Part shown: piece by piece, positions 29,398 through 53,270 of the stretch | Layout of the letters: every line of letters begins with the position of its first letter | Position numbering within the stretch: position 1 is the first letter of the stretch | Origin: Pectinatus haikarae | GTDB taxonomy: Bacteria > Bacillota > Negativicutes > Selenomonadales > Selenomonadaceae | Length of the DNA: 64,000 bases | Assembly (NCBI RefSeq): GCF_015732185.1 | Contig: NZ_WIQM01000015.1 | Location: 62,001 to 126,000, forward strand | Direction of reading: 5' to 3' | Position numbers and translations under genes: made by a program | The notes under the pieces: model-generated | What the model was told of the DNA's origin: nothing | Database searches by the model: none | What the model saw: only the letters and a program-made list of their open reading frames with translations

Positions 29398-30039
29398 TTA
29401 TTCCAGCAGCTCAACAATGGCATCACCCATAGCTGCCAGCAGCAGCCGGCAGGATACCGAACCAGCATCGGGCACGCCGATGCTGCGCTCGCCCAGTCGG
29501 CTGGCTCTGCCGTATCTGGCCTTAAGCTCTCTGGTGGAATCGCTGCCGGCTTTTGCCGCAGCTTTCATTTTTATCAGGGCTGTCTTAAAGTCTTCCTTTT
29601 TCTCGGTGCTTTTTTTGAGGCTTTCAAGTGCCGGAGCGAGCGTATCAATAAGGGTTTTATCGCCGGGGCGGGCTTCGATTATTTCACTGAGTTTGCTGTA
29701 TCCTTTTTCGATCATCGCTGTGAGATCCGCCAGGCTTATCTTGGTCAGCCGGCTGCCAGCTTCACCCATTCCGATAAACAATGTGCCGTATATCGACCCC
29801 ATAGAACCGCCGATTTTATTCATTAGGGTTGTTCCCAGTTTTTCGAGTCCTTCATTGAAACTGAGTTCTTTGTCTTTATATTCCTTCTCAAACAGAGAAA
29901 ATCCTTTGTTCATGTTTATACCGTGGTCGCCGTCACCGATCAGTCCGTCAATATCGCTTAGATGTGTTTTGTTCTGTTGTATGCTCCGCACCATTGCCTG
30001 CAGGATAGAACGGCCTTTTTTATTATCAAATGCTGTCAT
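29398..30039 (-). CDS. dhaL: Dihydroxyacetone kinase-type subunit DhaL
   Basis: 213 residues, all-helical nucleotide-binding subunit. GLIGDGDHGINMNKGF holds the three aspartates (about D31, D36, D38) and H39 that hold Mg-nucleotide, and MGSIYGTLFIGMG and ARYGRASRLGERSIGVPDAGS are family blocks. It overlaps dhaK by four bases (ATGA). No DhaM phospho-donor subunit follows. The dhaKL pair is clearly more G+C-rich than the upstream operon genes. Confidence 0.93.
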   Translation of the reverse strand: MTAFDNKKGRSILQAMVRSIQQNKTHLSDIDGLIGDGDHGINMNKGFSLFEKEYKDKELSFNEGLEKLGTTLMNKIGGSMGSIYGTLFIGMGEAGSRLTKISLADLTAMIEKGYSKLSEIIEARPGDKTLIDTLAPALESLKKSTEKKEDFKTALIKMKAAAKAGSDSTRELKARYGRASRLGERSIGVPDAGSVSCRLLLAAMGDAIVELLE

Positions 30040-31040
30040 GAGCAGACGCCCTCTTTAAGCCCCATACTGCAGGCAGGCATATCGATGAGCTCCTTTAGTT
30101 CGTCGTCGAGCTTCATCATTGTAAAGGTCGCTCCTTTCATTTCCAGGGATGTGAAATAGTTGCCGACATAGTTTTTATAGATTTTTATTCCTTTTTGCTG
30201 AAGCAGTTTTTCAATTTCATTGTACAGTACATAAAGCTCCATTACCGGGGTCGCACCCAGTCCGGAAACAAGCACGGCAGTCTGATCACCTTCTTTGAAA
30301 GGATAATCTGGAAGCACTATATTGACCATTATTTTGGCAATATCTTCGGCTGAACCAAGAGGTTCTACTTTCATGCCGGGCTCTCCGTGATGTCCTATAC
30401 CGATCTCCATCGTTGAAGGTTTTATTGCAAAGTTAGGATGGTCGGCAGCCGGCAGTGTGCATGGAGACAGGCCTATACCGACACTTCGGGTAGAATCCAC
30501 GGCTTTTTGCGCTGCGGCTATTACCTCGTCAAGCGAAGCACCCTGTGCCGCTTTGGCAGCACCGACCTTCCACATAAAAATCTCTCCGGCCACACCGCGG
30601 CGTTTCTCCCGCTGGTCTGCCGGAGCTGATGCCACATCATCATTGGCAATTACGGTCTTTATGGCAATTCCTTCTTTTTTTGCCATAGCAACAGCCATTT
30701 TGACGTTCATATTATCACCGGAGTAATTCCCGTAGAGACAGGCCACGCCCTTTTTCTGATCGGCGACTTTGGCCGCGTCAAGAAAAGCGGCGGCTGTAGG
30801 GGAGGAAAATATTTCGCCGACAGCTGCGGCATCGCACATATTTTTGCCCACATAGCCGATAAAGGCAGGTTTGTGTCCGCTGCCGCCGCCGGTTATTATC
30901 CCAACCTTGGCTCCCGGGATGTTCCTGGCTTTTATCACGCGAGGATTGGCAGTCGCTTCCACAATATCGGCATGTGCCTTTAAAAATCCCTCCAGCATTT
31001 CATCCACTATATTATCAGGGTCATTTATTATTCTCTGCAT
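30036..31040 (-). CDS. dhaK: Dihydroxyacetone kinase-type subunit DhaK (substrate-binding)
   Basis: 334 residues. The substrate loop GGGSGHKPAFIGYVGKNM (H56), NYSGDNMN (D109) and MEIGIGHHGEPGMKVEPL with the His at 218 that forms a hemiaminal with the ketose carbonyl are present. The partner DhaL supplies the phosphoryl group. As the last steps of a PTS-epimerase-aldolase operon, the real substrate could be dihydroxyacetone or another short ketose such as a tetrulose; this is inference. Confidence 0.93.
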   Translation of the reverse strand: MQRIINDPDNIVDEMLEGFLKAHADIVEATANPRVIKARNIPGAKVGIITGGGSGHKPAFIGYVGKNMCDAAAVGEIFSSPTAAAFLDAAKVADQKKGVACLYGNYSGDNMNVKMAVAMAKKEGIAIKTVIANDDVASAPADQREKRRGVAGEIFMWKVGAAKAAQGASLDEVIAAAQKAVDSTRSVGIGLSPCTLPAADHPNFAIKPSTMEIGIGHHGEPGMKVEPLGSAEDIAKIMVNIVLPDYPFKEGDQTAVLVSGLGATPVMELYVLYNEIEKLLQQKGIKIYKNYVGNYFTSLEMKGATFTMMKLDDELKELIDMPACSMGLKEGVCS

Positions 31041-31059
31041 ACTGTCCTCCTATTTAGAA

Positions 31060-31734
31060 TCAATTTATTATATCGGTACCCACTATATTTAAAATATCTT
31101 CTGGTCTGTCCGCTATATACACTGCCCCATACTTTTCAAGTTCCTTTCTGTCTCTGAATCCCCAGGTAACACCAATACTTTCTATTCCTGCATTCTTGGC
31201 TGTTAATATATCTGTTTTTGAATCTCCGACATATATAATTTTGCTTTTGGGAATATTCATTGTTTTTATTATTATCTCTGCAGCTGCGGGATCTGGTTTT
31301 TTAGGAATATTTGTTCTTTCCCCGTATATGGCAATAAATGAAATCATTGACAGTTTATCACTCAGTAATATTTTGGTGTAATCATCTCGTTTATTGGAAT
31401 TAACCGCCAGTGACATTCCTGCATCTCTGAGTTTTATCAATGTTTGCCCGATACCATTATAAGGTTTTGTATTTTTTCTATAATTTTTATCGTATACTGC
31501 CAAAAAACTGCTTAAAATTCTATCAATCATTTCTGCCGGAGTATCTGTCGGTAAACTGCGTTCCAGCAAATCTCTGAATCCGCCGCCAATTTTTAATTTA
31601 TAATCTTCTTTCGCATATCTTTTATAGCCATACATACCTAATGCTTCGTTTACACTATTTGATAAATCTTCCAGTGTATCCAGCAATGTCCCGTCCAAGT
31701 CAAAAATAATTCCATCGTATTTCAACATATTCAT
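31060..31734 (-). CDS. HAD-family sugar phosphatase (phosphoglycolate phosphatase-like)
   Basis: 224 residues. The HAD motifs are DLDGTLLDT (nucleophile D12), VNSNKRDDYTK, KKPDPAAA and YVGDSKTDILTAKNAG, with an alpha-helical cap between motifs 1 and 2. It would dephosphorylate a small sugar phosphate in the cytoplasm. It lies between the PTS IIC gene and dhaK, so it may remove a phosphate introduced by the PTS, making a free ketose for DhaKL. The substrate is not known. Confidence 0.85.
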   Translation of the reverse strand: MNMLKYDGIIFDLDGTLLDTLEDLSNSVNEALGMYGYKRYAKEDYKLKIGGGFRDLLERSLPTDTPAEMIDRILSSFLAVYDKNYRKNTKPYNGIGQTLIKLRDAGMSLAVNSNKRDDYTKILLSDKLSMISFIAIYGERTNIPKKPDPAAAEIIIKTMNIPKSKIIYVGDSKTDILTAKNAGIESIGVTWGFRDRKELEKYGAVYIADRPEDILNIVGTDIIN

Positions 31735-31755
31735 ATTTTTTATTCACCACCGCTA

Positions 31756-32784
31756 TTATAACTTTTCATTTTCCGTATTCTTTTTGAACAAAATCAAGCA
31801 TCCCGCTGTTACAAAACCTGCGATAATCAATGCCAGTAAAAATAACAATATATTATTGCAGAGAAAAAACACAAACAAACCACCATGCGGCGCATTCATT
31901 GTAAGATCAAATGAGTAGGACAACACTGCCCCCACCGCCGAACCTGCCATCAATGCTGGAATGACCCTAAACGGATCGGATGCCGCAAACGGAATGGCAA
32001 ACTCAGTTATCATTCCAAAGGCTCCTGCAAAAAGTCCCGGTACCGACGCCTTTTCAGCACCTGTAAATTTATTTTTTGCCAGCATGCATGCGATAGCAAT
32101 CCCCAATGGCGGCGACATTGACGCAATAAAATTAGCCGACATCGGGGCCCAATTACCGGCTTCCGAAGCTGCTATCGCAAATGCATAGGCTACTTTATTG
32201 CAGGGACCGCCCATATCAAATGCCAGCATGCAACCTTGAATAATACCCAAAACTACCAACCCGCTACCGCTTAATCCATTTAAAAAGTCCTGTAAAAATT
32301 TATTCAGCCATGAAATCGGGCCGCCTATAATATATACCATTATAAGCCCCATAATACCGACTCCCAGCAAAGGAATTATAAGTGTGGCCAAAAGTGATCG
32401 CAAGGACATCGGCAGCGGTATTCGTTTCAGCTGATTAACAATATATCCTGCTATAATCCCTGCTATCAATGCTCCTAAAAAACCCGATCCTTGATCCGAT
32501 GCCAAAAGTCCCCCTACCATACCTGCGGAAATTCCAGGTTTATCGGCTATTGAATATGCCACATAAGCAGCCAGCACCGGACACATCAATGAAAACGCCG
32601 TCTTACCCACCCAAAATGATGTTGATGCAAGATCGCCGTATTTTTCAACCGAATCAGGTATATTATAACCGCCGATTGCAAACCCTACTGCTATCAAAAT
32701 TCCTCCTGATATAACAAATGGCAGCATATAGGAAACTCCTGACAATAATGCTTCCTGAATTTCACGCAGTCGCTCCTTCATCAT
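31756..32784 (-). CDS. PTS fructose-family transporter, EIIC membrane subunit
   Basis: 342 residues, about eight to nine hydrophobic helices. EALLSGVSYMLPFVISGGIL and MAFDMGGPCNKVAYAFA, then MAPH-like TMNAPHGGLFVFF are EIIC-Fru landmarks. It forms the sugar channel, while separate EIIB and EIIA genes (next upstream) pass phosphate from HPr. The first of two adjacent ATGs was used. The sugar is probably a ketose or polyol given the neighbours. Confidence 0.92.
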   Translation of the reverse strand: MMKERLREIQEALLSGVSYMLPFVISGGILIAVGFAIGGYNIPDSVEKYGDLASTSFWVGKTAFSLMCPVLAAYVAYSIADKPGISAGMVGGLLASDQGSGFLGALIAGIIAGYIVNQLKRIPLPMSLRSLLATLIIPLLGVGIMGLIMVYIIGGPISWLNKFLQDFLNGLSGSGLVVLGIIQGCMLAFDMGGPCNKVAYAFAIAASEAGNWAPMSANFIASMSPPLGIAIACMLAKNKFTGAEKASVPGLFAGAFGMITEFAIPFAASDPFRVIPALMAGSAVGAVLSYSFDLTMNAPHGGLFVFFLCNNILLFLLALIIAGFVTAGCLILFKKNTENEKL

Positions 32785-32785
32785 G

Positions 32786-33094
32786 TTATCCCTCCACTAT
32801 ATTTTTAAAGATTATTTCTGGGTTTTGAATTACTTCATGCGGTTTGACTTTTACGATTTTATCCTTATATTCATCAAATCTCTCTGCCTTAACGACCTTT
32901 ATATCATTAGCAAAAACAATTAAATCGGCATTTTCTATTTCAGCGGGTGATAATTTATTTTCTAACCCCAATGCTCCCTGCATTTCTACTTTACAGGAAT
33001 AATTTTTTTCTTTGCATATTTTTTTTATGGCTTCTGCGGCCATGTATGTGTGTGCTACTCCGGTAGCACAAGAAGTAATTGCTATAACCTGCAT
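32786..33094 (-). CDS. PTS fructose-family EIIB subunit
   Basis: 102 residues from the ATG at 33094, six bases from GGAGG; the longer frame has no site. The phospho-acceptor is Cys9 in AITSCATGVAHTYMAAE, the EIIB-Fru signature. It is a separate polypeptide, one base from EIIC, taking phosphate from the EIIA protein encoded just upstream. Confidence 0.92.
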   Translation of the reverse strand: MQVIAITSCATGVAHTYMAAEAIKKICKEKNYSCKVEMQGALGLENKLSPAEIENADLIVFANDIKVVKAERFDEYKDKIVKVKPHEVIQNPEIIFKNIVEG

Positions 33095-33153
33095 ACAGAA
33101 CCTCCTGTTAATATTATAAGAATTAAGCAAATTTTCTTTACTTTATTTGTATT

Positions 33154-33624
33154 TTACTGCCATTTTTCAATTATCAGCAGAAGCTGCTCATATGACTCGA
33201 TAGTTTCCAGCGCATCTATAAATTCCTGATGTACCAGCATCCCTGCTAATGCCGCCAACACTCTAAGGTAATCATTTGCTGCCTGACTTTCCGGAATAGC
33301 CAGCATAAAAATATATTTCACCTCTCCTGCCGTATCAGCGCTTTTATAGATAAAAGGTTTTCTGCATCTGCAAAAAGCCACTCCCGGATTAACAACCGTT
33401 TTACTTTTACCATGTGGTATGGCAATAAAATTCCCCATATAGGTTGGTCCCAATTTCTCTCTGTAATTAAGAGCAGCAACAAAATCGTCCTTATTTTTCA
33501 CAACCTGCACCTGCTCTAATCTGTCAGCCAAAAAATCAAAGACTGCCTCTTTGTCATTAAATGAATCAACATTCAACACGACAGCATTTTTTTGCAATGC
33601 ATTTGATATTAGAACCTTTCCCAT
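33154..33624 (-). CDS. PTS fructose-type EIIA subunit
   Basis: 156 residues of the EIIA-2 fold. The active histidine is H71 in YMGNFIAIPHGKSKTV, and NDYLRVLAALAGML is a family block. It takes phosphate from HPr. The ATG at 33624 has no ribosome site of its own; a short ORF upstream with a good site overlaps its first codons, so translation is probably coupled to that ORF. Confidence 0.9.
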   Translation of the reverse strand: MGKVLISNALQKNAVVLNVDSFNDKEAVFDFLADRLEQVQVVKNKDDFVAALNYREKLGPTYMGNFIAIPHGKSKTVVNPGVAFCRCRKPFIYKSADTAGEVKYIFMLAIPESQAANDYLRVLAALAGMLVHQEFIDALETIESYEQLLLIIEKWQ

Positions 33625-33659
33625 TTGTTTATCGGCATAATGCCAACAATTATTGACAT
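33609..33659 (-). CDS. Possible 16-codon leader ORF ahead of the EIIA gene
   Basis: An ATG at 33659 lies eight bases after GGAGG and encodes 16 residues (MSIIVGIMPINKWERF) before a stop that lies 16 bases inside the EIIA gene. Its first codons form a 9-bp hairpin GGCATAATG / CATTATGCC. It may serve only to load ribosomes for EIIA. No function is claimed for the peptide. Confidence 0.35.
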   Translation of the reverse strand: MSIIVGIMPINKWERF

Positions 33660-33676
33660 TATGCCATCCTCCTCAT

Positions 33677-34546
33677 TTATTTATTATTACGAAACATTTT
33701 TATTATATCTTGAGCATAATCTTTAATAAAATGATACGCATCTTCTTGAACTTCATGATAGAACATACTGCCCTTCGCTGCGTTCAACTTTTCCCAAACA
33801 TGTTTGCTTGTGGCTTTAGCCATATAAGAATAATAATTTATTTTCGAACACCCTGCAGTTATGGCCTGCTGTACCTGATCTGCATCTACACCGCTGCCCC
33901 CGTGCATTACTATCCGGCACTTGTCATTAACTTGCTTTCTTATTTCCTTCACACGTTCAATATCAAGCAACGGCTCCTCCGCATAGATTCCATGCATAGT
34001 TCCGAAGCATACTGCCAGTGCATCAATACCTGTACGTTCAGCAAATTCAGCAGCCTGAGCCGGATCAGTAAAGCTTTTTTTAATATCTTCACGTGTAAGC
34101 GGTTTACCTCCATGAGAATCTTCTTCCGTACTTGACATGACTCCCAGTTCAGCTTCAACTGTTATATTAAGCTTATGCGCAATCTTGGTAAAAGCTGCCA
34201 ATTCCTCAACATTTTTTTCAAACGACATTGCACTGCAGTCATACATAATAGAAGGAAAACCACATCGTATAGCGCGCATCACAAACGTAAAATCACTGCC
34301 ATGGTCAAGATGCACACAGATAGGTACTTTGGCTTTTTCAGCATACTTTATCATTAACGGACCTATTCTTTCAATAGGAATGAGCTGGTCATGCACTTGC
34401 GCATGATCTATAATAAGCGGTGTATTCATCTCTTCTGCGGCTTTTATAAGCCCTCTGATCGTTTCTTCATTTGGCGAATTTATGCATCCGATTGCATAAT
34501 GATTTTTTTCGGCATCCTCAAGAATTTCACGCATATTAACTAACAT
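33677..34546 (-). CDS. Class II ketose-bisphosphate aldolase family protein
   Basis: 289 residues from the ATG at 34546, seven bases from GGGAGG. Zinc/catalytic motif VHLDHGSDF (H79, D81, H82), EAELGVMSS, CFGTMHGIY and RIVMHGGSGVD mark the FbaA/GatY/KbaY group. It should split a ketose phosphate into dihydroxyacetone phosphate and an aldehyde, or the reverse. In this operon it probably cleaves the epimerised sugar phosphate; the substrate is inference. Confidence 0.9.
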   Translation of the reverse strand: MLVNMREILEDAEKNHYAIGCINSPNEETIRGLIKAAEEMNTPLIIDHAQVHDQLIPIERIGPLMIKYAEKAKVPICVHLDHGSDFTFVMRAIRCGFPSIMYDCSAMSFEKNVEELAAFTKIAHKLNITVEAELGVMSSTEEDSHGGKPLTREDIKKSFTDPAQAAEFAERTGIDALAVCFGTMHGIYAEEPLLDIERVKEIRKQVNDKCRIVMHGGSGVDADQVQQAITAGCSKINYYSYMAKATSKHVWEKLNAAKGSMFYHEVQEDAYHFIKDYAQDIIKMFRNNK

Positions 34547-34572
34547 TATATGACCTCCCATGTTTAATAAAA

Positions 34573-35490
34573 TTAAAGTTTTGTTATTGCAAATACAGCC
34601 TTAATTTGATGTTTTTCAAAGTTAACCAATTGATATTTTACTTTGGCCGGTATAAAAAATGTATCTTCTCGTTCTAATACAAAACTTTCTTGTAGATCAG
34701 GAAGATTTATAGTAATAGGACCATCTATACAAAAAATAGCTGCATCGCCTTCATGTGAATCAATATCTGAACAGCGTGGTCCATATCCGCCGCCGTTTGG
34801 CAGAATAAATTCGCCAAAGTGCCCGTAATCATTGCTGGTAATAAATCGCATAAGCATTGGATGTTTTGTTCCGTGAACATTATTGAGCTTTTCAAAGTCA
34901 CGCACACCATATACTGCTCCCGTCCGTCTTGCCTCTTTTGCATCTACGGGCCATTTTCCTATATCATCGGTACATCCCTGTCTGGAAATATCATATATTT
35001 TCTCATTCATGTTGGGCAGTTTATCGTTATTTGGCCCTTTATAAAATTTAGTTTCTTCGTCAGTAGGTATAATCGCCGGAGGGATCTCTGTACTCCAAGC
35101 CTTAGGTGTTATGAAATAAAGTATGCGTGCCTTATCATCAGAAAAATTATGACAGCAGTGCCATGCTCCTTCAGGCATAAATAACCCTTCTCCTGTTCTG
35201 AGATAGGCAAACTGTCCATTACCGCTTCTCTGTACCACAGGTCCTTGAAGGATATAATACGATTCATCGCCCGGATGTATATCAAGCGGAGCAAATACTC
35301 CACCCGGACCCAACTCATAAATTCCCAGCATAAATGTATCTGTTGATACAAGCGTAAACGTATTATCACTGGTAAATGCATTATCAGGCGGATATAATGC
35401 TGTAGAATATTCTGTTCTTTTTATCAACATAGGTTTTTTATCTTTTACTTTGAAGGGAAAATTTTCTAAAATATCTAATAATTTCGCCAA
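34573..35490 (-). CDS. Bicupin protein of unknown function (sugar isomerase-like context)
   Basis: 305 residues with two cupin folds. The first (about 55-135) has a complete metal motif: H72 and E76 in IHPGDESYYILQG and H111/H114 in GAWHCCHN. The second (about 215-300) keeps the fold (SHEGDAAIFCIDG) but lacks the Glu and the second-motif His (FIPAKVKYQL), so it is likely metal-free. It starts with TTG behind GAGG. I do not recognise a named enzyme; sugar isomerisation is a guess from context. Confidence 0.75.
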   Translation of the reverse strand: MAKLLDILENFPFKVKDKKPMLIKRTEYSTALYPPDNAFTSDNTFTLVSTDTFMLGIYELGPGGVFAPLDIHPGDESYYILQGPVVQRSGNGQFAYLRTGEGLFMPEGAWHCCHNFSDDKARILYFITPKAWSTEIPPAIIPTDEETKFYKGPNNDKLPNMNEKIYDISRQGCTDDIGKWPVDAKEARRTGAVYGVRDFEKLNNVHGTKHPMLMRFITSNDYGHFGEFILPNGGGYGPRCSDIDSHEGDAAIFCIDGPITINLPDLQESFVLEREDTFFIPAKVKYQLVNFEKHQIKAVFAITKL

Positions 35491-35525
35491 TTATTACACC
35501 TCATAATTTATAATTTTTCTGCCAA

Positions 35526-36386
35526 TCAAATTCTGACTGCAATAGCTTCTAAATTGGCTAATCCCTTAACTGCCAATTCTTCTCCTGTATCTGCAAACTT
35601 CCGCCAAATAGCGCACTGCCCATTCAGTTCTTCAAAACCTGGATCGAATGATTCTATCACGCATGGTCCTTTATACCCTATATTTTTTAGTGCAGTAAAA
35701 AACTCCTTGAACGGCACCATCCCTGTCCCCGGAATCCCACGATTGCTTTCGCATACATGCACATAGCCTAAATATTTTACTCCGCATATCTCCACAGCCT
35801 TTGTGTAGCTTTCCTCCTCTCTGATCATATGAAAGCAATCGAGATGCACTGCCATATTTCCTGTTCCCACATCCTGGCAATACTTTACGCCATCTTCTGC
35901 AATATTGATGAAATGTGTTTCAAACCTATTTACCGGCTCAACACAAATCTTCAGCTCCGGATGTACTTTAAGCGCATATTCTGCGGCCTCCTGCATCGCA
36001 TTTACGGAGTGCGTCCATTCTATTTCCGTACGCGGCCTGCCGGTCAGACATCCCCAGCCCGCATAATTTACACCGCCCAATATTTTAGAACCGATAGCTC
36101 TGTTTATATCTATCAGCTTCTTTAATGAATCAATACCTTTTTTTCTTATTTGAGAATCCATCGAAATAATACTGTTATCAGCATTTAAGGTCGTACTTGT
36201 CACCGGTTCAAGTCTGGTTTTTTTCAATTCTATTATTACTTTTTCCGTAGGAAATGTTTCCGGATGAGCGATAGCAAAATCAATTGCCTTAAATCCTAAA
36301 TTCTCGGCTTTCTTTATTATCCACAAATCTTTTTCAGTAAATACCTCTGTCCATATAAAGGTATCTACTCCAAATTTCATATCCAT
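35526..36386 (-). CDS. Ketose 3-epimerase family protein (D-tagatose/D-psicose 3-epimerase-like TIM barrel)
   Basis: 286 residues. The metal and catalytic residues of the D-tagatose 3-epimerase family are all in place: E150 in CVEPVNRFETHFINIAEDG, D183 in VHLDCFHMI, H210 in GYVHVCESNRGIPGTG and E245 in CVIESFDP. These enzymes epimerise C3 of free ketoses using Mn or Co. It is the first gene of the operon, directly downstream of the promoter and operator region. Two in-frame ATGs lie near the AGGAGG. Confidence 0.88.
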   Translation of the reverse strand: MDMKFGVDTFIWTEVFTEKDLWIIKKAENLGFKAIDFAIAHPETFPTEKVIIELKKTRLEPVTSTTLNADNSIISMDSQIRKKGIDSLKKLIDINRAIGSKILGGVNYAGWGCLTGRPRTEIEWTHSVNAMQEAAEYALKVHPELKICVEPVNRFETHFINIAEDGVKYCQDVGTGNMAVHLDCFHMIREEESYTKAVEICGVKYLGYVHVCESNRGIPGTGMVPFKEFFTALKNIGYKGPCVIESFDPGFEELNGQCAIWRKFADTGEELAVKGLANLEAIAVRI

Positions 36387-36400
36387 ATGTCCTCCTTATA

Positions 36401-36506
36401 AAAGAAATTAAAAAGAAATTAAATAAGCTTATAAATAACTTTAAAGAAATGATATCACACTTTATTTCTTCTGTAAAGATGTTTTTATTTTCTTTTAACT
36501 TTCTTA
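36401..36506. promoter_or_regulatory. Symmetric operator region with tandem 11-bp AAGAAA-NTTAA repeats
   Basis: Two AAAGAAATTAA units in tandem (36401-36422) face two inverted AAGAAA-type units (36484-36506), with single copies nearer the centre (36443-36450 and the inverse at 36463-36470). The dyad centre is GATATC at 36451-36456, overlapping the -10 of the sugar operon. Likely the binding area of the divergent DeoR regulator. Confidence 0.55.
36449..36477 (-). promoter_or_regulatory. Promoter of the sugar operon
   Basis: TTTACA (36477-36472), 17-base spacer, TATCAT (36454-36449), inside the repeat region and 60 bases before the epimerase gene. Confidence 0.75.
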
Positions 36507-36535
36507 TTGCTTTTTTTTAACATTTGGGCTAATAT
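36507..36535 (+). promoter_or_regulatory. Promoter of the DeoR regulator
   Basis: TTGCTT (36507-36512), 17-base spacer, TAATAT (36530-36535), just next to the inverted repeat pair. Confidence 0.65.
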
Positions 36536-36565
36536 GTATATAAAAATAAAAAAGGACTTGTAAAT

Positions 36566-37324
36566 ATGGCCAAGCCTATAAATTTAGAAAGACGCAATCA
36601 GATAGTTCAATATGTGCTTGCTAAAGGCTCTGTGACAGTTAGTGAGTTAGCAAAAAATTTTGATGTGTCTATGGTAACAATGAGAAAAGATCTTGATTAT
36701 CTTACCTCCAATAATCTCCTTGAAAAAGGACATGGAATCGTTAATATTGCAAAGAGTTATACCGAAAATAGCTTTTCCCTGAAGGAAGAAAAAAATCTCA
36801 AAGCTAAAACTCTGATAGCTAAAAAAGCAGCTGGTCTTATCAGAGAAAATAATGTTGTCTTTTTAGATTCGGGATCAACTACTTTACAACTGGCAAAAAT
36901 ATTGTCCGTGCGTGATGACATAATTATTGTCTCAAATTCAGCTATTATTGGTGCGAATTTATACAATGCTTCCTGCCAAATATTGATTACCGGCGGTGAA
37001 TTAAGAAAAAAGAGCCTATCCTATGTTGGCCCATGGACACATATGGCTATTGAACAAATAAAAATTGATATTGCATTTTTATCCTGTAGCGGTTTTCAAG
37101 AAAAAGGTCCTTCCATTGACTCCTTCAGAGAACTCAGCATAAAACAAGATATTATAAAAAAAGCCGACACAAATATATTACTTGCAGATACATCAAAATT
37201 TCAGCGCCGAAGTCTATACCGTTATGCAGATTTTTATAATTTCAGCGCCTTTGTAACAGAAAGAGCCCTTCATGATGAAGAGCTGGAAAAATATGCTGAT
37301 CTTAAAAGCATCACTATTTGTTAA
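36566..37324 (+). CDS. DeoR-family transcriptional regulator of the sugar operon
   Basis: 252 residues. The N-terminal winged helix (about 5-60) reads RRNQIVQYVLAKGSVTVSELAKNFDVSMVTMRKDLDYL, given here as one region, and the C-terminal sugar-phosphate-sensing domain has FLDSGSTTLQLAKIL, VVSNSAI and ITGGELRKKSLSYVGP. DeoR proteins usually repress until a sugar phosphate binds. It is divergent from the PTS/epimerase operon and separated by a symmetric operator-like region, so control of that operon and itself is likely. Confidence 0.92.
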   Translation: MAKPINLERRNQIVQYVLAKGSVTVSELAKNFDVSMVTMRKDLDYLTSNNLLEKGHGIVNIAKSYTENSFSLKEEKNLKAKTLIAKKAAGLIRENNVVFLDSGSTTLQLAKILSVRDDIIIVSNSAIIGANLYNASCQILITGGELRKKSLSYVGPWTHMAIEQIKIDIAFLSCSGFQEKGPSIDSFRELSIKQDIIKKADTNILLADTSKFQRRSLYRYADFYNFSAFVTERALHDEELEKYADLKSITIC

Positions 37325-37365
37325 GCCCATCGCATCATGCACAGATATCACCATTAACAAATAAC

Positions 37366-37394
37366 TTGACCAAATTACAAGTATATATTAGAAT
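37366..37394 (+). promoter_or_regulatory. Sigma-A promoter of glmS
   Basis: TTGACC (37366-37371), 17-base spacer, TAGAAT (37389-37394), about 115 bases before the ribozyme core. Confidence 0.7.
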
Positions 37395-37511
37395 ATGGAA
37401 GACACAGAAACATCGCGTTTCTCTGCATCCATCATATCTATGTACTGCAATCTGCCGCGGTACAGACAGATGATCAGCAAAGGAGGTTTCAGGCTTCACC
37501 CAAAAGCATAT

Positions 37512-40600: not shown

Positions 40601-42709
40601 TTGAATAAAGGGGAAATAAGTCCAAGAGTAAAAAGCATTATTCTTATTTTGTGCGCCCAGAAAAATTTTATGACGATAAGAGCTATCGCTGTTAAGCTAT
40701 CTGTCAGTACAAAAACAGTAATACGCGATCTTCCAGAAATAGAAAAACTTATAGGAAAATATCATGCACATCTGGACAAAAAACAGGGTGTTGGCATTTG
40801 TCTGCAAGGCAGTGAAGATGTTTTAATAAGGATAAAAGCAGCATTTGACACAGCTCCGGAAAAACTTATTTATCAACCCAAAGAACGCTCTACCTTTTTA
40901 ACAGCACGGCTGCTGCAAAATCAGGCTCCTATCAAACTTTTTGAACTTTCAACGGAACTCAATGTCGCTGAAAGCACCATAAGCAGTGATCTGGACAAGC
41001 TCGAAGATTGGTTTATCAAACATAAGCTTATACTCATACGCAAACCGGGGCTCGGCGTATATGTGAGCGGCTCGGAAAAAAATATACGCAAAGCTATCCT
41101 TCATTGTATTTATGAAAATATTGATGAAAAATCTTTGGTAAGTATCCTTCATGATACACTTTCCCGAAAACATGACGTAAAAAACCTGGTCGATCAATCT
41201 TCACAAAGACTTTTGAATCTTGTTGACACTCATGTCCTGCACAGGCTGGAAACCGTTCTTCGGCAAATCGAAACAAAGGATTCTTTTAAATTATCCGACA
41301 ATGCCTATGTCGGTCTGCTGATTCATCTTGCACTGGCAATACAGCGTATGGGACAAAACGAAAAAATAAGTTTTGATGATTCATTTTTAAAGCAGCTTTC
41401 CGGGAAAAAAGAATTTACGATCAGCAAACAAATAGCCTTATCAATAGAAAAAATGTTCAGCATCAGTGTTCCGCGCGAAGAAATAGGATATATCGCAATG
41501 CATCTGCTCGGAACACGGAATGAATATTACACCGGCAGCACTCCTTTTATTCCCAATTTCCAGCTCGTACAGCTGGCAAAAAAAATTATAAAAACTGCTC
41601 AGGCTGAGACTGGTCAAAAGCTTGAGAATAACGAAAAACTGCTTATCGGTCTTGTAAATCATCTCGGTCCATCCATAAGCCGATTGAAAATGGGTATGGA
41701 AATACGCAATCCCCTGCTGTCCGATATAAAAAAAGATTATGCACAGCTCATGCAGCTCAGCCGCATATGCTGCACACCTTTATATAAAATAGTCGGCCCG
41801 CATATTCCTGATTCTGAAGTAGCTTATATTGCCATGCATCTTGGTGCTGCCTTAGAAGACACAAAGCACACTTCCCAGACAAAATATCATGTGGCCATAG
41901 CATGCCCGACAGGACTGGGGTCTTCTAAACTTCTTGCCTCTCGCATAAAGCATGAATTTAATAGGATCCACATCGTGGATATTATTTCTGCCCTGCGTCT
42001 TGACTCGAACAAACTTTCAAAGGAAAATATTGACTTTATTATATCCACAGTCCCTATTCCCGACGCTTCGCTTCCCGTTTTGGTAGTAAATGCTCTGCTT
42101 CGTTCCGAGGATATTCATTCCATCAATAAATTTCTTTTAGTCTGTAAGTCTTCTTCAAAAAATATACGTTCCGCTTCAAAAGAGCAGCTTCCCTTTCAGG
42201 ACGCTTTATTGCAGCTTACTCACTATCAAACCGCTATCTTTGATATACTAAACAAATTTATCTTTATTGATGAAACCGGGCCAATACATGTGAATGATCT
42301 TATCAAAAAAATAGGATCTTTGCTAAGCGATGACAATGCCGATGACGCTGTTACCCAGGCAATATGGGAGAGGGAAAAATACGGCAGTACCTTTCTTTAT
42401 GACCAGAAAATCATGCTTCTGCATTGCCGCGCTCCCGTGAGCTCTTCGCGTCTGTCTATTGCAAGAATAGAAAATGGTTTTTCGCACACGGATGCTTCTG
42501 TCAAGCTCACAGCTGCGGTGGCGCTGGTCATCCCGATCAACGGTTATCAGGAAAATGCCGAAACAATGGGTGCCATAACTGAGGCGATGGCCGAAAATTG
42601 GCTTTTTTCTTCCACAATAACTAATGGGACAAAAAATGATATTCTAAAAGCTTTGGAAACAATTCTAAAAAGTTTCCTGCAAAAAAAGATCAATCTATTG
42701 CTAACCTAA
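40601..42709 (+). CDS. mtlR: MtlR-type PRD-containing transcriptional activator
   Basis: 702 residues. Order of domains: helix-turn-helix (about 8-60, MTIRAIAVKLSVSTKTVIRDL), a second DNA-binding part, PRD1 (LIHLALAIQRMG; IGYIAMHLLGTR), PRD2 (LVNHLGPSISRLK; VAYIAMHLGAAL), an EIIB-Gat-like domain with CPTGLGSSKLL and a C-terminal EIIA-like domain (IMLLHCRAPV). PTS phosphorylation of these domains tunes activity. It starts with TTG behind AGGAGG, and mtlA-mtlD follow without a visible promoter. Confidence 0.92.
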   Translation: MNKGEISPRVKSIILILCAQKNFMTIRAIAVKLSVSTKTVIRDLPEIEKLIGKYHAHLDKKQGVGICLQGSEDVLIRIKAAFDTAPEKLIYQPKERSTFLTARLLQNQAPIKLFELSTELNVAESTISSDLDKLEDWFIKHKLILIRKPGLGVYVSGSEKNIRKAILHCIYENIDEKSLVSILHDTLSRKHDVKNLVDQSSQRLLNLVDTHVLHRLETVLRQIETKDSFKLSDNAYVGLLIHLALAIQRMGQNEKISFDDSFLKQLSGKKEFTISKQIALSIEKMFSISVPREEIGYIAMHLLGTRNEYYTGSTPFIPNFQLVQLAKKIIKTAQAETGQKLENNEKLLIGLVNHLGPSISRLKMGMEIRNPLLSDIKKDYAQLMQLSRICCTPLYKIVGPHIPDSEVAYIAMHLGAALEDTKHTSQTKYHVAIACPTGLGSSKLLASRIKHEFNRIHIVDIISALRLDSNKLSKENIDFIISTVPIPDASLPVLVVNALLRSEDIHSINKFLLVCKSSSKNIRSASKEQLPFQDALLQLTHYQTAIFDILNKFIFIDETGPIHVNDLIKKIGSLLSDDNADDAVTQAIWEREKYGSTFLYDQKIMLLHCRAPVSSSRLSIARIENGFSHTDASVKLTAAVALVIPINGYQENAETMGAITEAMAENWLFSSTITNGTKNDILKALETILKSFLQKKINLLLT

Positions 42710-42756
42710 ATTATTATTAATTTTATTAAAAATTACAAAACGGAGGTATTAACATC

Positions 42757-44649
42757 ATGAATGAAAATGCTAAAACAAATACCATTCAGGAAAGCATTCA
42801 GGTTTTTGGCCGCTTTCTAAGCGGTATGGTAATGCCCAATATAGGTGCTTTTATTGCCTGGGGCTTGCTGACAGCTTTATTCATACCCACGGGCTGGCTG
42901 CCTAACGAATATCTTGCCAAAGCCAGCGGTCCAATGGTCCAATGGCTTATACCTTTACTGATAGGTTACAGCGGCGGACGGGCTGTATATGATCACAGAG
43001 GCGGTGTAGTAGGTGCCATAGCAACGGCTGGTGTCATCGCCGGTGCGGATATACCGATGTTTCTTGGTTCCATGATAATGGGACCTTTAGGCGGATGGGT
43101 CATCAAAAAATTTGATGATGCTTTTCAGGAAAGCATCCCTGCCGGTTTTGAAATGCTGGTCAACAATTTTTCCGCAGGTATCATCGGCGCTATACTTGCT
43201 GTGCTTGCCTATGTAGTCGTAGGTCCGATCGTGCTCGGTTTAAACAATATCCTGCGGGCTGCCGTCGAGTTTCTCGTAAATATAAACCTTATTCCTCTTG
43301 TTTCCATACTCGTTGAACCGGGAAAAATACTTTTCCTGAACAATGCGATCAATCATGGCATTTTTACACCTATAGGAATTCAAGAATCGCAAAACTTCGG
43401 TAAATCTTTATTTTTCCTGATTGAAGCAAATCCTGGTCCCGGTCTTGGTGTTCTTCTTGCTTTCTGCCTGTTTGGCAAGGGCAGTGCCAAAGGTTCTGCC
43501 CCCGGTGCCGTCATAATCCATTTTCTCGGCGGTATACATGAAATATATTTTCCTTATATCCTCATGAAACCAATGCTTCTGCTGGCTTTAATCCCTGCTG
43601 GTATGTGCGGTGTTCTGACATTGCATATCTTAAATGGCGGTCTCATAGCTCCCGCTTCTCCCGGCAGCATTTTCGCCGTTTTGGCCATGACACCAAAAGG
43701 CGCATATTTTGCCAATATAGCGGCCGTAGTAGTTGCCACAGCAGTCTCTTTCATCATAGCTTCGATCATTCTCAAATCTTCCAAAGATACTGGGGACAAT
43801 ACCGCACTGGAAGCTGCTAAGGCAGATATGAAATCAATGAAAAATCTTGGTAAGGCTTCAAATGAAAATAAAATTATTCCCGGCACACAAATAAAGAAAA
43901 TCATCTATGCCTGCGACGCAGGAATGGGATCTTCCGCAATGGGTGCGAGCGCTCTGCGGAACAAATTCAAAAAAGCCGGCTTTACTAATATTTCCATAAC
44001 TAATTGCGCCATCGAAAATATTCCTGCCGATGCCCAGATAGTCGTTTCCCATGAAAAATTGGCGGAACGGGCAGAAAAAGCATCTCCGCAGGCAGAACAT
44101 ATCTTCGTCACTGATTTTCTGCAGAACAATGTCTTTGATCTTTTGGCCCAGCGAATACGTCAAAATTCAGCTGCCGCTGATGTCCCCGCCGCTGTTCCAG
44201 ATGACAAACCGGCTGCTTTTAACGGCAGTGTCTTGAAGATCGAAAATATCAAAATCGGCCTAAACACCGTTTCCCACGATGAAGCCATCAAAATGGCCGG
44301 ACAAATCCTCGTAGACGGCGGATATGTAAATAACGACTATATTGCCGCCATGCTGCGCCGCGAAGAACAGATCAGTACCTACATCGGCAAGGGCGTCTCC
44401 ATACCGCACGGTGACAGCAGCGCCAAAGGCGAAATCAAAGCTTCCGGACTTTCCGTACTGCAATTTCCGCAGGGTGTGAAATTTGGCGACGAAACAGCCT
44501 ATATAGTTATCGGCATAGCCGGCATAGGCAACGAGCATTTAACTATACTTTCCAATATAGCCACTATGCTGGATGAAAATGAAAATGCCGTAACGATCCT
44601 TAAGAATGCAAAAACACCGCAGGAAATCTATGATCTATTCACGAAATAA
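42757..44649 (+). CDS. mtlA: PTS mannitol transporter EIICBA
   Basis: 630 residues with all three domains fused. The EIIC membrane domain (about 1-345) opens VQVFGRFLSGMVMPNIGAFI-like and contains GPGLGVLLAFCLFG; EIIB has the phospho-cysteine in IIYACDAGMGSSAMGAS; EIIA has the phospho-histidine in GVSIPHGDSSAKGEI. It imports mannitol as mannitol-1-phosphate. Many Firmicutes encode EIIA separately as MtlF; the fusion here resembles enteric MtlA. mtlD follows. Confidence 0.96.
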   Translation: MNENAKTNTIQESIQVFGRFLSGMVMPNIGAFIAWGLLTALFIPTGWLPNEYLAKASGPMVQWLIPLLIGYSGGRAVYDHRGGVVGAIATAGVIAGADIPMFLGSMIMGPLGGWVIKKFDDAFQESIPAGFEMLVNNFSAGIIGAILAVLAYVVVGPIVLGLNNILRAAVEFLVNINLIPLVSILVEPGKILFLNNAINHGIFTPIGIQESQNFGKSLFFLIEANPGPGLGVLLAFCLFGKGSAKGSAPGAVIIHFLGGIHEIYFPYILMKPMLLLALIPAGMCGVLTLHILNGGLIAPASPGSIFAVLAMTPKGAYFANIAAVVVATAVSFIIASIILKSSKDTGDNTALEAAKADMKSMKNLGKASNENKIIPGTQIKKIIYACDAGMGSSAMGASALRNKFKKAGFTNISITNCAIENIPADAQIVVSHEKLAERAEKASPQAEHIFVTDFLQNNVFDLLAQRIRQNSAAADVPAAVPDDKPAAFNGSVLKIENIKIGLNTVSHDEAIKMAGQILVDGGYVNNDYIAAMLRREEQISTYIGKGVSIPHGDSSAKGEIKASGLSVLQFPQGVKFGDETAYIVIGIAGIGNEHLTILSNIATMLDENENAVTILKNAKTPQEIYDLFTK

Positions 44650-44732
44650 TTATTGATAAAGCTTTTCTGAGACAGATATATCTTTCTCAGGCTGATCAGA
44701 AATTAAACACAACTATTCAGGAGGAGTTCACA

Positions 44733-45878
44733 TTGAAAGCAGTACATTTTGGTGCAGGCAATATCGGCCGTGGTTTTATAGGAGAACTGCTCCATAATTC
44801 CGGCTTTGAGATCACTTTTATCGAAGTAGACAAACACACAGTAGATTATATAAATAAAACCAACAGTTATGATGTATATATTATCAACGACAACTATCGT
44901 AAAGAAGTAATTGATAATGTTTGTGCGGTTTCCCCCATAACTGATGAGAAAAAGGCTATTGATGCAATCATTGCAGCGGATATAATAACCACGTCCGTTT
45001 GTGTCGATAATCTGCCGAAAATTGCCGGCACTTTGGCAAAAGGACTTAAGGAACGTCTTGCTAAAAGTGGAAGCAAAGTAAATATTTTATCATGCGAAAA
45101 CGCATTTTACGCCACTGATATGCTGAAAAAAGCTCTGACAGAATGTAAATTCGCTTTGACGGAAGAAGAGCTTGATTCTATCGGCTGTTTTCCTAACGTA
45201 GCCGTCGACCGCATTGCATTAAGCACAGAGCAGGACGGCATTCGTATTCCGCAGATAGAGATTTCTTTTGAACTTGTCATCGAAAAAAACAAACTTAAAG
45301 ATCCGTCAAGCCAACCCATCAAGGGAGCTGAATACGCTGACAATCTTGGTATGTATCTGGAAAGAAAACTTTATGTATTCAACTGCGGACATGCTACGGC
45401 AGCATATCTTGGCTATGCAAAAAAATTACCGACAATTTATGACGCGTTGAATGATAAGGCCATTTACGCTTCTGTAGTAGCTGCCATGCGCGAATCTGCT
45501 GTCATGATGACAAAGAAATTTCCTTTCACAACAGAAGAGCTGGAAACCTTCATCCAAAAAATATTGAAACGTATCTCACTTAAAGATCTGCATGATGAAG
45601 TTACCCGTGTCGGCCGTTCACCGATCAGGAAACTTGGCAGAAAAGATCGTTTGGTCGGCCCTGCCATGCTGGCTCAGGAATATGCTCTTCCTAATGAACA
45701 CTTGGCAGCAGCCATCGCCGCCGGATATCACTTTGATTACGCAGAAGATGAACAGGCCGCGGAAATTCAAAATTTCATAAAAAGCAATGGCATCGAAAAA
45801 GCTGTGGAAAAATATTCTCAGCTTACAAGCAGCGATCCTTTATTTGGAAAAATAGTATCTGCTTACAATAATATATAG
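44733..45878 (+). CDS. mtlD: Mannitol-1-phosphate 5-dehydrogenase
   Basis: 381 residues with the Rossmann opening MKAVHFGAGNIGRGFIGELL and the polyol dehydrogenase core (VAVDRIALS; LYVFNCGHATAAYLGY; GRSPIRKLGRKDRLVGPA). It oxidises mannitol-1-phosphate to fructose-6-phosphate with NAD. It starts with TTG behind AGGAGGAG. An intercistronic hairpin CTGAGA / TCTCAG (44667-44690) may set mRNA stability relative to mtlA. Confidence 0.97.
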   Translation: MKAVHFGAGNIGRGFIGELLHNSGFEITFIEVDKHTVDYINKTNSYDVYIINDNYRKEVIDNVCAVSPITDEKKAIDAIIAADIITTSVCVDNLPKIAGTLAKGLKERLAKSGSKVNILSCENAFYATDMLKKALTECKFALTEEELDSIGCFPNVAVDRIALSTEQDGIRIPQIEISFELVIEKNKLKDPSSQPIKGAEYADNLGMYLERKLYVFNCGHATAAYLGYAKKLPTIYDALNDKAIYASVVAAMRESAVMMTKKFPFTTEELETFIQKILKRISLKDLHDEVTRVGRSPIRKLGRKDRLVGPAMLAQEYALPNEHLAAAIAAGYHFDYAEDEQAAEIQNFIKSNGIEKAVEKYSQLTSSDPLFGKIVSAYNNI

Positions 45879-52574: not shown

Positions 52575-53270
52575 TTATCCACCCGCATAGCGGGTGGTTT
52601 TTCCTTTTCGGGCATAGCCCTTTTTCACTGGCTGCGCATAAATGCGCCTTTTATTGGCCTGCCAGCCATGCAACTTTTATTTGCTACCCGTAAACGGGTC
52701 TCTTTGATCAAATAAACTTAATTGGTCTGCTTCCTTATCTCGTTTTAACTGATTTGCTATATATTCTGTTATAGCTTTTGTGTCTTTTCCAACTGTATCT
52801 ACATAGTACCCTTTGCACCAAAATTCGCGGTTTCTATACGCAAATTTCATATTCCCAAATTTTTGAAAGATCATTAAGCTGCTTTTCCCTTTTAGATATC
52901 CCATAAATCCTGAAACACTTATCTTTGGTGGTATACAAACTAACAAATGTATATGATCTGGACATATTTCTCCCTCAATAATTTCTACATCTTTCCATTC
53001 ACATAAAGTTCTCATTATATCTCGCAGTTCTTGCCGTTTTTCCTTATAAAATACCTTTCTACGATACTTCGGGGCAAAAACTATGTGATACTTACAATTC
53101 CACTTCGTATGTGCTAAACTATGTGTGTCATTATTTTCTTGTTTCGGCATTTAGTGGCATCTCCTAATGTATAATCTGTATTTTAAGCTGGCAGGCTTAT
53201 TTTCAGGTTAGCACATTAGGACTCACCGCTTAAGCTTTTTTGAACCACGCGACTATCGCGTGGTTTTCTT
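52575..53270 (-). mobile_element. IS200-type insertion sequence (IS200/IS605 family, tnpA only)
   Basis: About 700 bases, the size of IS200. It has no inverted terminal repeats but has subterminal hairpins at each end: CCACCCGCATAGCGGGTGG (52579-52597) and AACCACGCGACTATCGCGTGG (53243-53263, minus one base beyond). An inverted pair GCCTGCCAGC / GCTGGCAGGC (52657-52666, 53187-53196) flanks the gene. No tnpB. Exact ends cannot be fixed without an empty site. Confidence 0.85.
52677..53150 (-). CDS. tnpA: IS200 transposase TnpA (HUH, Y1)
   Basis: 157 residues, closely resembling classical IS200 TnpA: SLAHTKWNCKYHIVFAPKYR, CPDHIHLLV with the HUH pair H66/H68, and KGYYVDTVG followed by the catalytic Tyr130 in TEYIANQ. 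It cuts and joins single-stranded DNA at the end hairpins. All key residues are intact, so it may be active. The ribosome site AGGAG is ten bases from ATG. Confidence 0.96.
   Translation of the reverse strand: MPKQENNDTHSLAHTKWNCKYHIVFAPKYRRKVFYKEKRQELRDIMRTLCEWKDVEIIEGEICPDHIHLLVCIPPKISVSGFMGYLKGKSSLMIFQKFGNMKFAYRNREFWCKGYYVDTVGKDTKAITEYIANQLKRDKEADQLSLFDQRDPFTGSK

Follow-up and report, generated by a model that had tools for sequence, protein, structure and literature searches.

What sugar would call for a phosphotransferase system, an epimerase of free ketoses, an unassigned bicupin, an aldolase, a phosphatase and a dihydroxyacetone kinase within one operon? The question is raised by nine minus-strand genes of the Negativicutes species Pectinatus haikarae, found in a stretch of 64,000 nucleotides (contig NZ_WIQM01000015.1, positions 62,001 to 126,000, assembly GCF_015732185.1; hereafter the window). 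The genes occupy positions 29398-36386 of the window and are tightly packed, with spacings of -4, 19, 21, 1, 23, 52, 11 and 35 bp, and a gap of 179 bp separates them from a divergent DeoR-family gene (Table 1). Gene families were assigned with Pfam/NCBIfam profiles, and the coordinates and families all agree with an earlier annotation of the sequence, the original prediction. It is suggested here, with a probability of about 0.45, that the operon breaks down a ketose by cutting it in two and processing each half on its own, the four-carbon half entering central metabolism.

Conservation of the gene set

A scan of some 85,000 species genomes with an alignment of the bicupin, together with a second Negativicutes locus, yielded 40 loci with close homologues. 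These belong to Bacillota and Actinomycetota, their hosts being mostly gut or anaerobic species, and their bicupins are 68-87% identical. The aldolase is present in 38 of them, the membrane component of the phosphotransferase system (PTS IIC) in 35, the epimerase in 27 and an isomerase of the RpiB type in 26; as some contigs end early, all such counts per locus are minima. Two Negativicutes genomes of another family retain all nine genes and the DeoR gene in a rearranged order, while the bicupin is absent from the sampled genomes of the same genus. Since gene order has been shuffled repeatedly, the co-occurrence is not mere linkage. The gene set is thus a real, conserved and uncharacterised sugar-catabolic module built of known kinds of enzyme. 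The original prediction had staked its case on the recurrence of these genes in related genomes, which is borne out for most of the set, and on the absence of a published pathway with the same genes; no publication describing the set was found in the open literature, most subscription journals lying outside the search.

Enzymes of the D-tagatose 3-epimerase (DTE) type use free ketoses, and the original prediction fairly pointed out how odd it is to find one behind a PTS, which delivers a phosphate. Its solution was a cycle of phosphates, in which the HAD phosphatase dephosphorylates the PTS product, the DTE-type enzyme epimerises the free ketose, the kinase DhaKL rephosphorylates it and the aldolase then cleaves it. 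All of these parts are present in the window, and the chemistry suits the epimerase family. The phosphatase (HAD_2), however, occurs in just 14 of the 40 loci and in 13 of the 27 with an epimerase, and was rejected as an obligatory step on the grounds that it is not conserved; the cycle would also waste phosphoenolpyruvate and ATP, and the DhaK family acts on short ketoses. Moreover, loci L041-L043 have no PTS genes; instead, an ABC transporter and an FGGY or PfkB kinase lie beside the aldolase and bicupin genes, which implies that a phosphate is needed before cleavage. In Oceanobacillus (L030) it is the aldolase of the fructose-bisphosphate aldolase (FBA) type that is missing, a class I aldolase of the DeoC/ADH-synthase type standing in its place. 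These replacements leave a constant core of phosphorylated sugar, aldolase and bicupin, and this core speaks against a loss of the phosphate ahead of the cleavage step. The order of steps in the cycle thus finds no support in the comparison of loci, and the cycle is very unlikely. The phosphatase may possibly serve to clean up a dead-end phosphate.

Splitting of the ketose would instead proceed as follows. As expected from its family, the fructose-type PTS would import a ketose and phosphorylate it, probably at C1. The aldolase would cleave the ketose-1-phosphate into dihydroxyacetone phosphate (DHAP) and a free aldehyde, for which an L-configured tetrose is, in view of the other genes, the best candidate; DHAP and a tetrose make a C7 ketose, and the imported sugar would then be a C7 2-ketose. 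The free tetrose would be isomerised to L-erythrulose by the bicupin and epimerised at C3 to D-erythrulose by the DTE-type enzyme. With an L-configuration at C3 of the tetrose, it would be clear why an epimerase is required. DhaKL, acting with ATP, would convert D-erythrulose to D-erythrulose-4-phosphate, from which an RpiB-type isomerase would form D-erythrose-4-phosphate for the pentose phosphate pathway. The steps from L-erythrulose onwards, the tetrulose arm, are fairly well supported, the first three being less certain.

The proposed tetrulose arm

The DhaK family phosphorylates free C3 and C4 ketoses, and its partnership here with RpiB, and sometimes with a homologue of triosephosphate isomerase (TPI), points to the aldehyde half released by the aldolase as the substrate, and not to the whole sugar. 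We consider it reasonably probable that C4 intermediates are involved in this arm. The window DhaK has the catalytic His56 and Asp109 and the covalent His218, in the motifs GHKPAF, DNMNVK and GHHGEPG respectively, and its Dak2-domain partner is present. It scores 356 bits against the cut-off of 406 for the dhaK1 equivalog. In a tree of the family, all 26 DhaK proteins from loci with an epimerase, including that of the window, form one clade (clade 1; SH-aLRT 100), with residues of its own adjoining each of the three active-site positions. The DhaK proteins of epimerase-less loci lie outside clade 1, seven of the eight forming a second clade. Independent support for erythrulose as the kinase substrate comes from the host of L041, in which a DhaK 75% identical to that of the window is encoded in one stretch with DhaL, RpiB and a dehydrogenase of the GolD/DthD family (350 bits; cut-off 286). 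DthD is D-threitol dehydrogenase, the product of which is D-erythrulose. Propionispora has, near its operon, a further dhaK gene that is divided between two reading frames (L013:2700-3900) and is probably a decayed or mis-assembled copy.

The operon had been described as encoding DhaKL without DhaM. DhaM is indeed absent from the operon in the window, although a canonical DhaKLM, linked to glycerol genes, is encoded separately in the genome. Among 23 host genomes with the epimerase, some of them metagenome-assembled, 20 lack any DhaM that passes the cut-off, the three that have one being Negativicutes. A DhaM-dependent DhaKL is thus rejected for most hosts, and the operon kinase is most likely ATP-dependent.

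The DTE-type epimerase carries the complete metal set that the original prediction ascribed to it. Residues E150, D183, H210 and E245, which we take to be metal ligands, and E156, H186 and R216, assumed to contact C1-C3 of the sugar, are invariant in 27 sequences. The enzyme resembles the 3-epimerases of D-tagatose, D-psicose and L-ribulose (e.g. 7cj4, 3vyl) in its fold family, its metal ligands and its contacts to C1-C3. With 160 bits against a cut-off of 300 for the D-psicose 3-epimerase equivalog, the enzyme belongs to the family but falls short of the named enzyme. An action at C3 of a free ketose, converting L- to D-erythrulose, would fit the chemistry of the family. One host without an epimerase in its bicupin locus encodes a 58%-identical epimerase elsewhere in the genome. 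Orthology with the TIM barrels of tetrulose loci in Klebsiella, in Pasteurella and in the alphaproteobacterial ery locus was considered and rejected, since BLAST returned no significant match to any of them.

RpiB-type isomerases, where counted above, lie near DhaKL. In the window genome the gene is unlinked and lies next to genes for a split transketolase and a regulator of the DeoR type, and relatives have theirs next to genes of the transaldolase family. A search for an operator shared by the operon and the transketolase-rpiB cluster revealed only AT-rich 12-mers in common. On a D-erythrulose-4-phosphate isomerase model, which bears a rhizobial name, the operon RpiBs score about as high as on the rpiB model or higher, whereas housekeeping RpiBs score 53-136 bits worse, so that the two groups differ in this respect by some 50 bits or more.

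LerK, the kinase of a known tetritol pathway, is here taken to be a member of the DhaK family. In that pathway L-erythrulose is converted by LerK to L-erythrulose-1-phosphate, by the TPI-family enzyme LerI to D-erythrulose-4-phosphate, and by DerI to D-erythrose-4-phosphate; from D-erythrulose, a kinase and DerI suffice, and RpiB may have DerI activity (PMC10733421, PMC12780249). Two routes of L-erythrulose use would thus need just the two gene sets that are seen in the bicupin loci, namely epimerase, DhaK of clade 1 and RpiB on the one hand, and DhaK of the second clade, a TPI homologue and RpiB on the other. A non-housekeeping TPI homologue occurs in seven of nine epimerase-less hosts of the PTS type against one of 25 epimerase-positive hosts (Fisher p ~5e-5), although these rows are related by descent and so count as a single swap or a handful of them rather than as 34 independent events. 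The homologue forms a separate clade, and was rejected as a plain copy of the housekeeping TPI. Three epimerase-less hosts (L116, L123, L128) have a third and very divergent TPI group (SH-aLRT 100, on a long branch). Comparable clusters of DhaK, TPI, RpiB, transketolase and transaldolase genes exist in Pasteurella and on a plasmid of Klebsiella; the latter, a conjugative plasmid of Klebsiella variicola (L135:1509-9882), encodes a fused DhaKL, a TPI homologue, RpiB, transketolase, transaldolase and a TIM-barrel isomerase, probably for tetritol or tetrulose use.

These partners also bear on a C6 version of the pathway, in which a ketohexose-1-phosphate from the PTS is cut by the aldolase into DHAP and glyceraldehyde, the latter becomes dihydroxyacetone through the bicupin, DhaKL forms a second DHAP and the TPI homologue removes DHAP. 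It would account for the substrate after which DhaKL is named, for the fructose-type PTS and for the TPI homologues in some loci, with the simple balance of two DHAP. It would, however, leave no role for RpiB, with its shift towards the D-erythrulose-4-phosphate isomerase model, nor for a free-ketose 3-epimerase that is tied to one DhaK clade. Nor does it sit well with the altered positions that flank the catalytic His and Asp in clade 1, or with the occurrence of this clade elsewhere alongside a DthD-family dehydrogenase and RpiB. The C6 version is unlikely.

The aldolase, the bicupin and the imported sugar

The aldolase keeps the zinc and catalytic motifs HLDHG, GT(M)HG and MHGGSG. Its best score against the named FBA and tagatose-bisphosphate aldolase (TBPA) equivalogs is ~221 bits, where the cut-offs are 343-423. 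All 38 aligned bicupin-linked aldolases, including that of the window, share the motifs DHAxxH and N(Y/F)Y(S/T)Y, at which GatY has other residues. In the alignment, two substrate-side motifs at the presumed contacts to a distal (C6) phosphate differ from those of both GatY and Staphylococcus aureus FBA, and the nearest solved relatives include YdjI, which uses DHAP and unphosphorylated L-arabinuronate. The enzyme may therefore be a ketose-1-phosphate aldolase whose aldehyde partner is new. Outside the window but in the same genome there is a second FBA-like aldolase (G000:C3 ~36573-37448; L106:10574-11449), 43% identical and sharing HAxVH and NYYxY; a zinc dehydrogenase-like gene and an apparent mannose-type PTS in the same genome make up with it an uncharacterised sister system. 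Apparently dedicated PTS phosphorelays, with homologues of Enzyme I and HPr encoded within the bicupin locus, are found in L019, L021, L024, L026, L027, L034, L044, L047 and L050.

The bicupin is highly conserved (84% mean column identity), with metal-type residues H72, E76 and H111 in the N-terminal cupin; the C-terminal one has H246, D249 and Q287. In a profile search only Cupin_2 rose above its cut-off and no named enzyme was reached, ureidoglycine aminohydrolase scoring 19.8 of the required 200 bits. An AlphaFold2 model (mean pLDDT 86.8) has the bicupin fold (best VIA Z 22.6). The sequence search gave no close solved homologue, and the fold search gave only generic bicupins, namely quercetinases, ureidoglycine aminohydrolases, BacB, KduI and IolB-like proteins (VIA Z ~19-23, 8-18% identity). 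The two-cupin fold is thus shared with the KduI, IolB-like, BacB and quercetinase types, but the sequence family is not, and Gln287 occupies a position of the second motif that is usually His. Rhizobial homologues (~41%) are split into two genes and cluster with L-ribulose-5-phosphate 4-epimerase (AraD) and ribulokinase. No arabinose isomerase is annotated near them, a setting that suits the bicupin as an aldose-ketose isomerase. A family of proteins of ~400 residues with no Pfam/NCBIfam match recurs in the vicinity of bicupin genes, whole or split, and of other sugar genes (L041:484-1704, L043:1742-2947, L053:11069-12265).

It could also be imagined that the bicupin takes its turn ahead of the aldolase and isomerises an aldose phosphate after import, or otherwise rearranges the sugar phosphate, into a form that the aldolase can cut, with the tetrulose arm unchanged. 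The two genes adjoin in many loci, including ABC loci with no DhaK nearby, and among bicupins there are isomerases of larger sugars (KduI and IolB-like proteins, which match in fold). Nothing in the operon would then turn the aldehyde half into a ketose for DhaKL, however, and the rhizobial homologues are accompanied by a sugar kinase and by no aldolase. This order of events is improbable. For the bicupin as a tetrose isomerase, and for a C7 substrate, the case is tentative, and the complete scheme, that is PTS-started heptulose catabolism in which a new aldolase frees a tetrose, the new bicupin family is a tetrose isomerase and D/L-erythrulose is the true substrate of the DTE-type enzyme, is a doubtful one.

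Several further observations, besides the common descent of the hosts compared for TPI, weigh against a split ketose with a four-carbon half. The putative loss of the phosphate-6 contacts in the aldolase is read from an alignment and from presumed structural roles. Against the DerI equivalog cut-off of 240 bits, the tested RpiBs that are operon- or transketolase-linked in epimerase-positive hosts score 131-179, and that of L021 scores 115. The window genome is itself the sole epimerase-positive exception with a TPI homologue, which sits in a C4-acid (OtnK/PdxA) cluster. The TPI homologues fall together with one that belongs to a C4-acid cluster, and not clearly with EryH of the erythritol locus, and they may only convert DHAP to glyceraldehyde 3-phosphate. 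The ABC loci L042 and L043 have neither RpiB nor DhaK nearby. Finally, in two rhizobial plasmid loci (L008:8489-9991, L009:8489-9991) an M20-type peptidase gene directly precedes the split bicupin, which the model leaves unexplained. This peptidase may hint at an amino-acid-sugar conjugate.

Operon features and relation to known systems

The features of the operon are collected in Table 1. As listed, the bicupin and IIB open reading frames begin with TTG; the true start of IIB is probably an internal ATG. Downstream, a plus-strand cluster at 40601-45878 resembles a mannitol PTS cluster (regulator, EII, mannitol-1-phosphate dehydrogenase-like), and an open reading frame of 157 amino acids at 52677-53150 resembles an IS200/IS605-type transposase, both as judged by eye.

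Table 1. The nine-gene operon and adjoining regulator in window coordinates, with supporting evidence
Feature	Position	Strand	Evidence
dhaL, DhaL/Dak2 nucleotide-binding subunit of ketose kinase	29398..30039	-	Pfam Dak2 164.6 bits; TIGR02365 162 bits (cut-off 138)
dhaK, kinase substrate subunit with H56, D109, H218; proposed D-erythrulose kinase	30036..31040	-	Profiles, clade tree, active-site motifs
HAD_2 phosphatase, accessory	31060..31734	-	Pfam/NCBIfam
Fructose-type PTS EIIC	31756..32784	-	TIGR01427 324 bits (cut-off 158)
Fructose-type PTS EIIB, phospho-Cys motif TSCATG	32786..33130	-	TIGR00829 above cut-off; motif
Fructose-type PTS EIIA, phospho-His motif IPHGK	33154..33624	-	TIGR00848 above cut-off; motif
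Class II (PF01116) FBA-type aldolase, distinct subfamily; proposed ketose-1-phosphate aldolase	33677..34561	-	DHAxVH and NYYSYMAK motifs
Bicupin (double cupin); proposed tetrose (aldose-ketose) isomerase	34573..35490	-	Profile, metal-type residues, fold model
DTE-type ketose 3-epimerase (TIM barrel); proposed 3-epimerase of a free tetrulose (L- to D-erythrulose)	35526..36386	-	Profile, active-site residues
Promoter/operator region in the gap that separates the operon from the regulator gene	36387..36565	.	
DeoR-family regulator, kept beside the operon in Negativicutes	36566..37324	+	

Several known systems resemble the operon in part. The L-erythrulose/tetritol pathway of Mycolicibacterium smegmatis (LerK, LerI, DerI, with a D-threitol branch through DthD) likewise uses a DhaK-family kinase and an RpiB-family isomerase to reach erythrose-4-phosphate, and its TPI homologue, LerI, is paralleled by the TPI homologue of the epimerase-less loci (PMC10733421, PMC12780249). 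There the tetrulose is derived from a polyol by a dehydrogenase, whereas the core of the bicupin operon has no dehydrogenase and adds an aldolase, a bicupin, a PTS and a free-ketose epimerase. The alphaproteobacterial ery locus (EryA-EryI; for example L112) also combines a 3-epimerase (EryC) with TPI-type and RpiB-type isomerases leading to erythrose-4-phosphate, but EryC acts on a phosphate, and the locus is without PTS, aldolase and bicupin. In the ydjEFGHIJ cluster of Escherichia coli, a PF01116 aldolase (YdjI) is encoded with a sugar kinase and a regulator, and its substrate is a ketose-1-phosphate whose two halves are DHAP and an unphosphorylated aldehyde, as proposed here; the aldehyde and the substrate-side motifs differ, however, and the cluster has no bicupin, epimerase, DhaKL or PTS.

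The uptake and catabolism of tetroses in microorganisms are still to be elucidated, according to a 2025 paper (PMC12780249). If the proposed route is true, it would provide a physiological role for a group of DTE-type epimerases that are otherwise studied mainly as allulose biocatalysts, and would assign an orphan family of bicupins. It would also give gut anaerobes a route to the use of a sugar for which no tests were found in the open literature.

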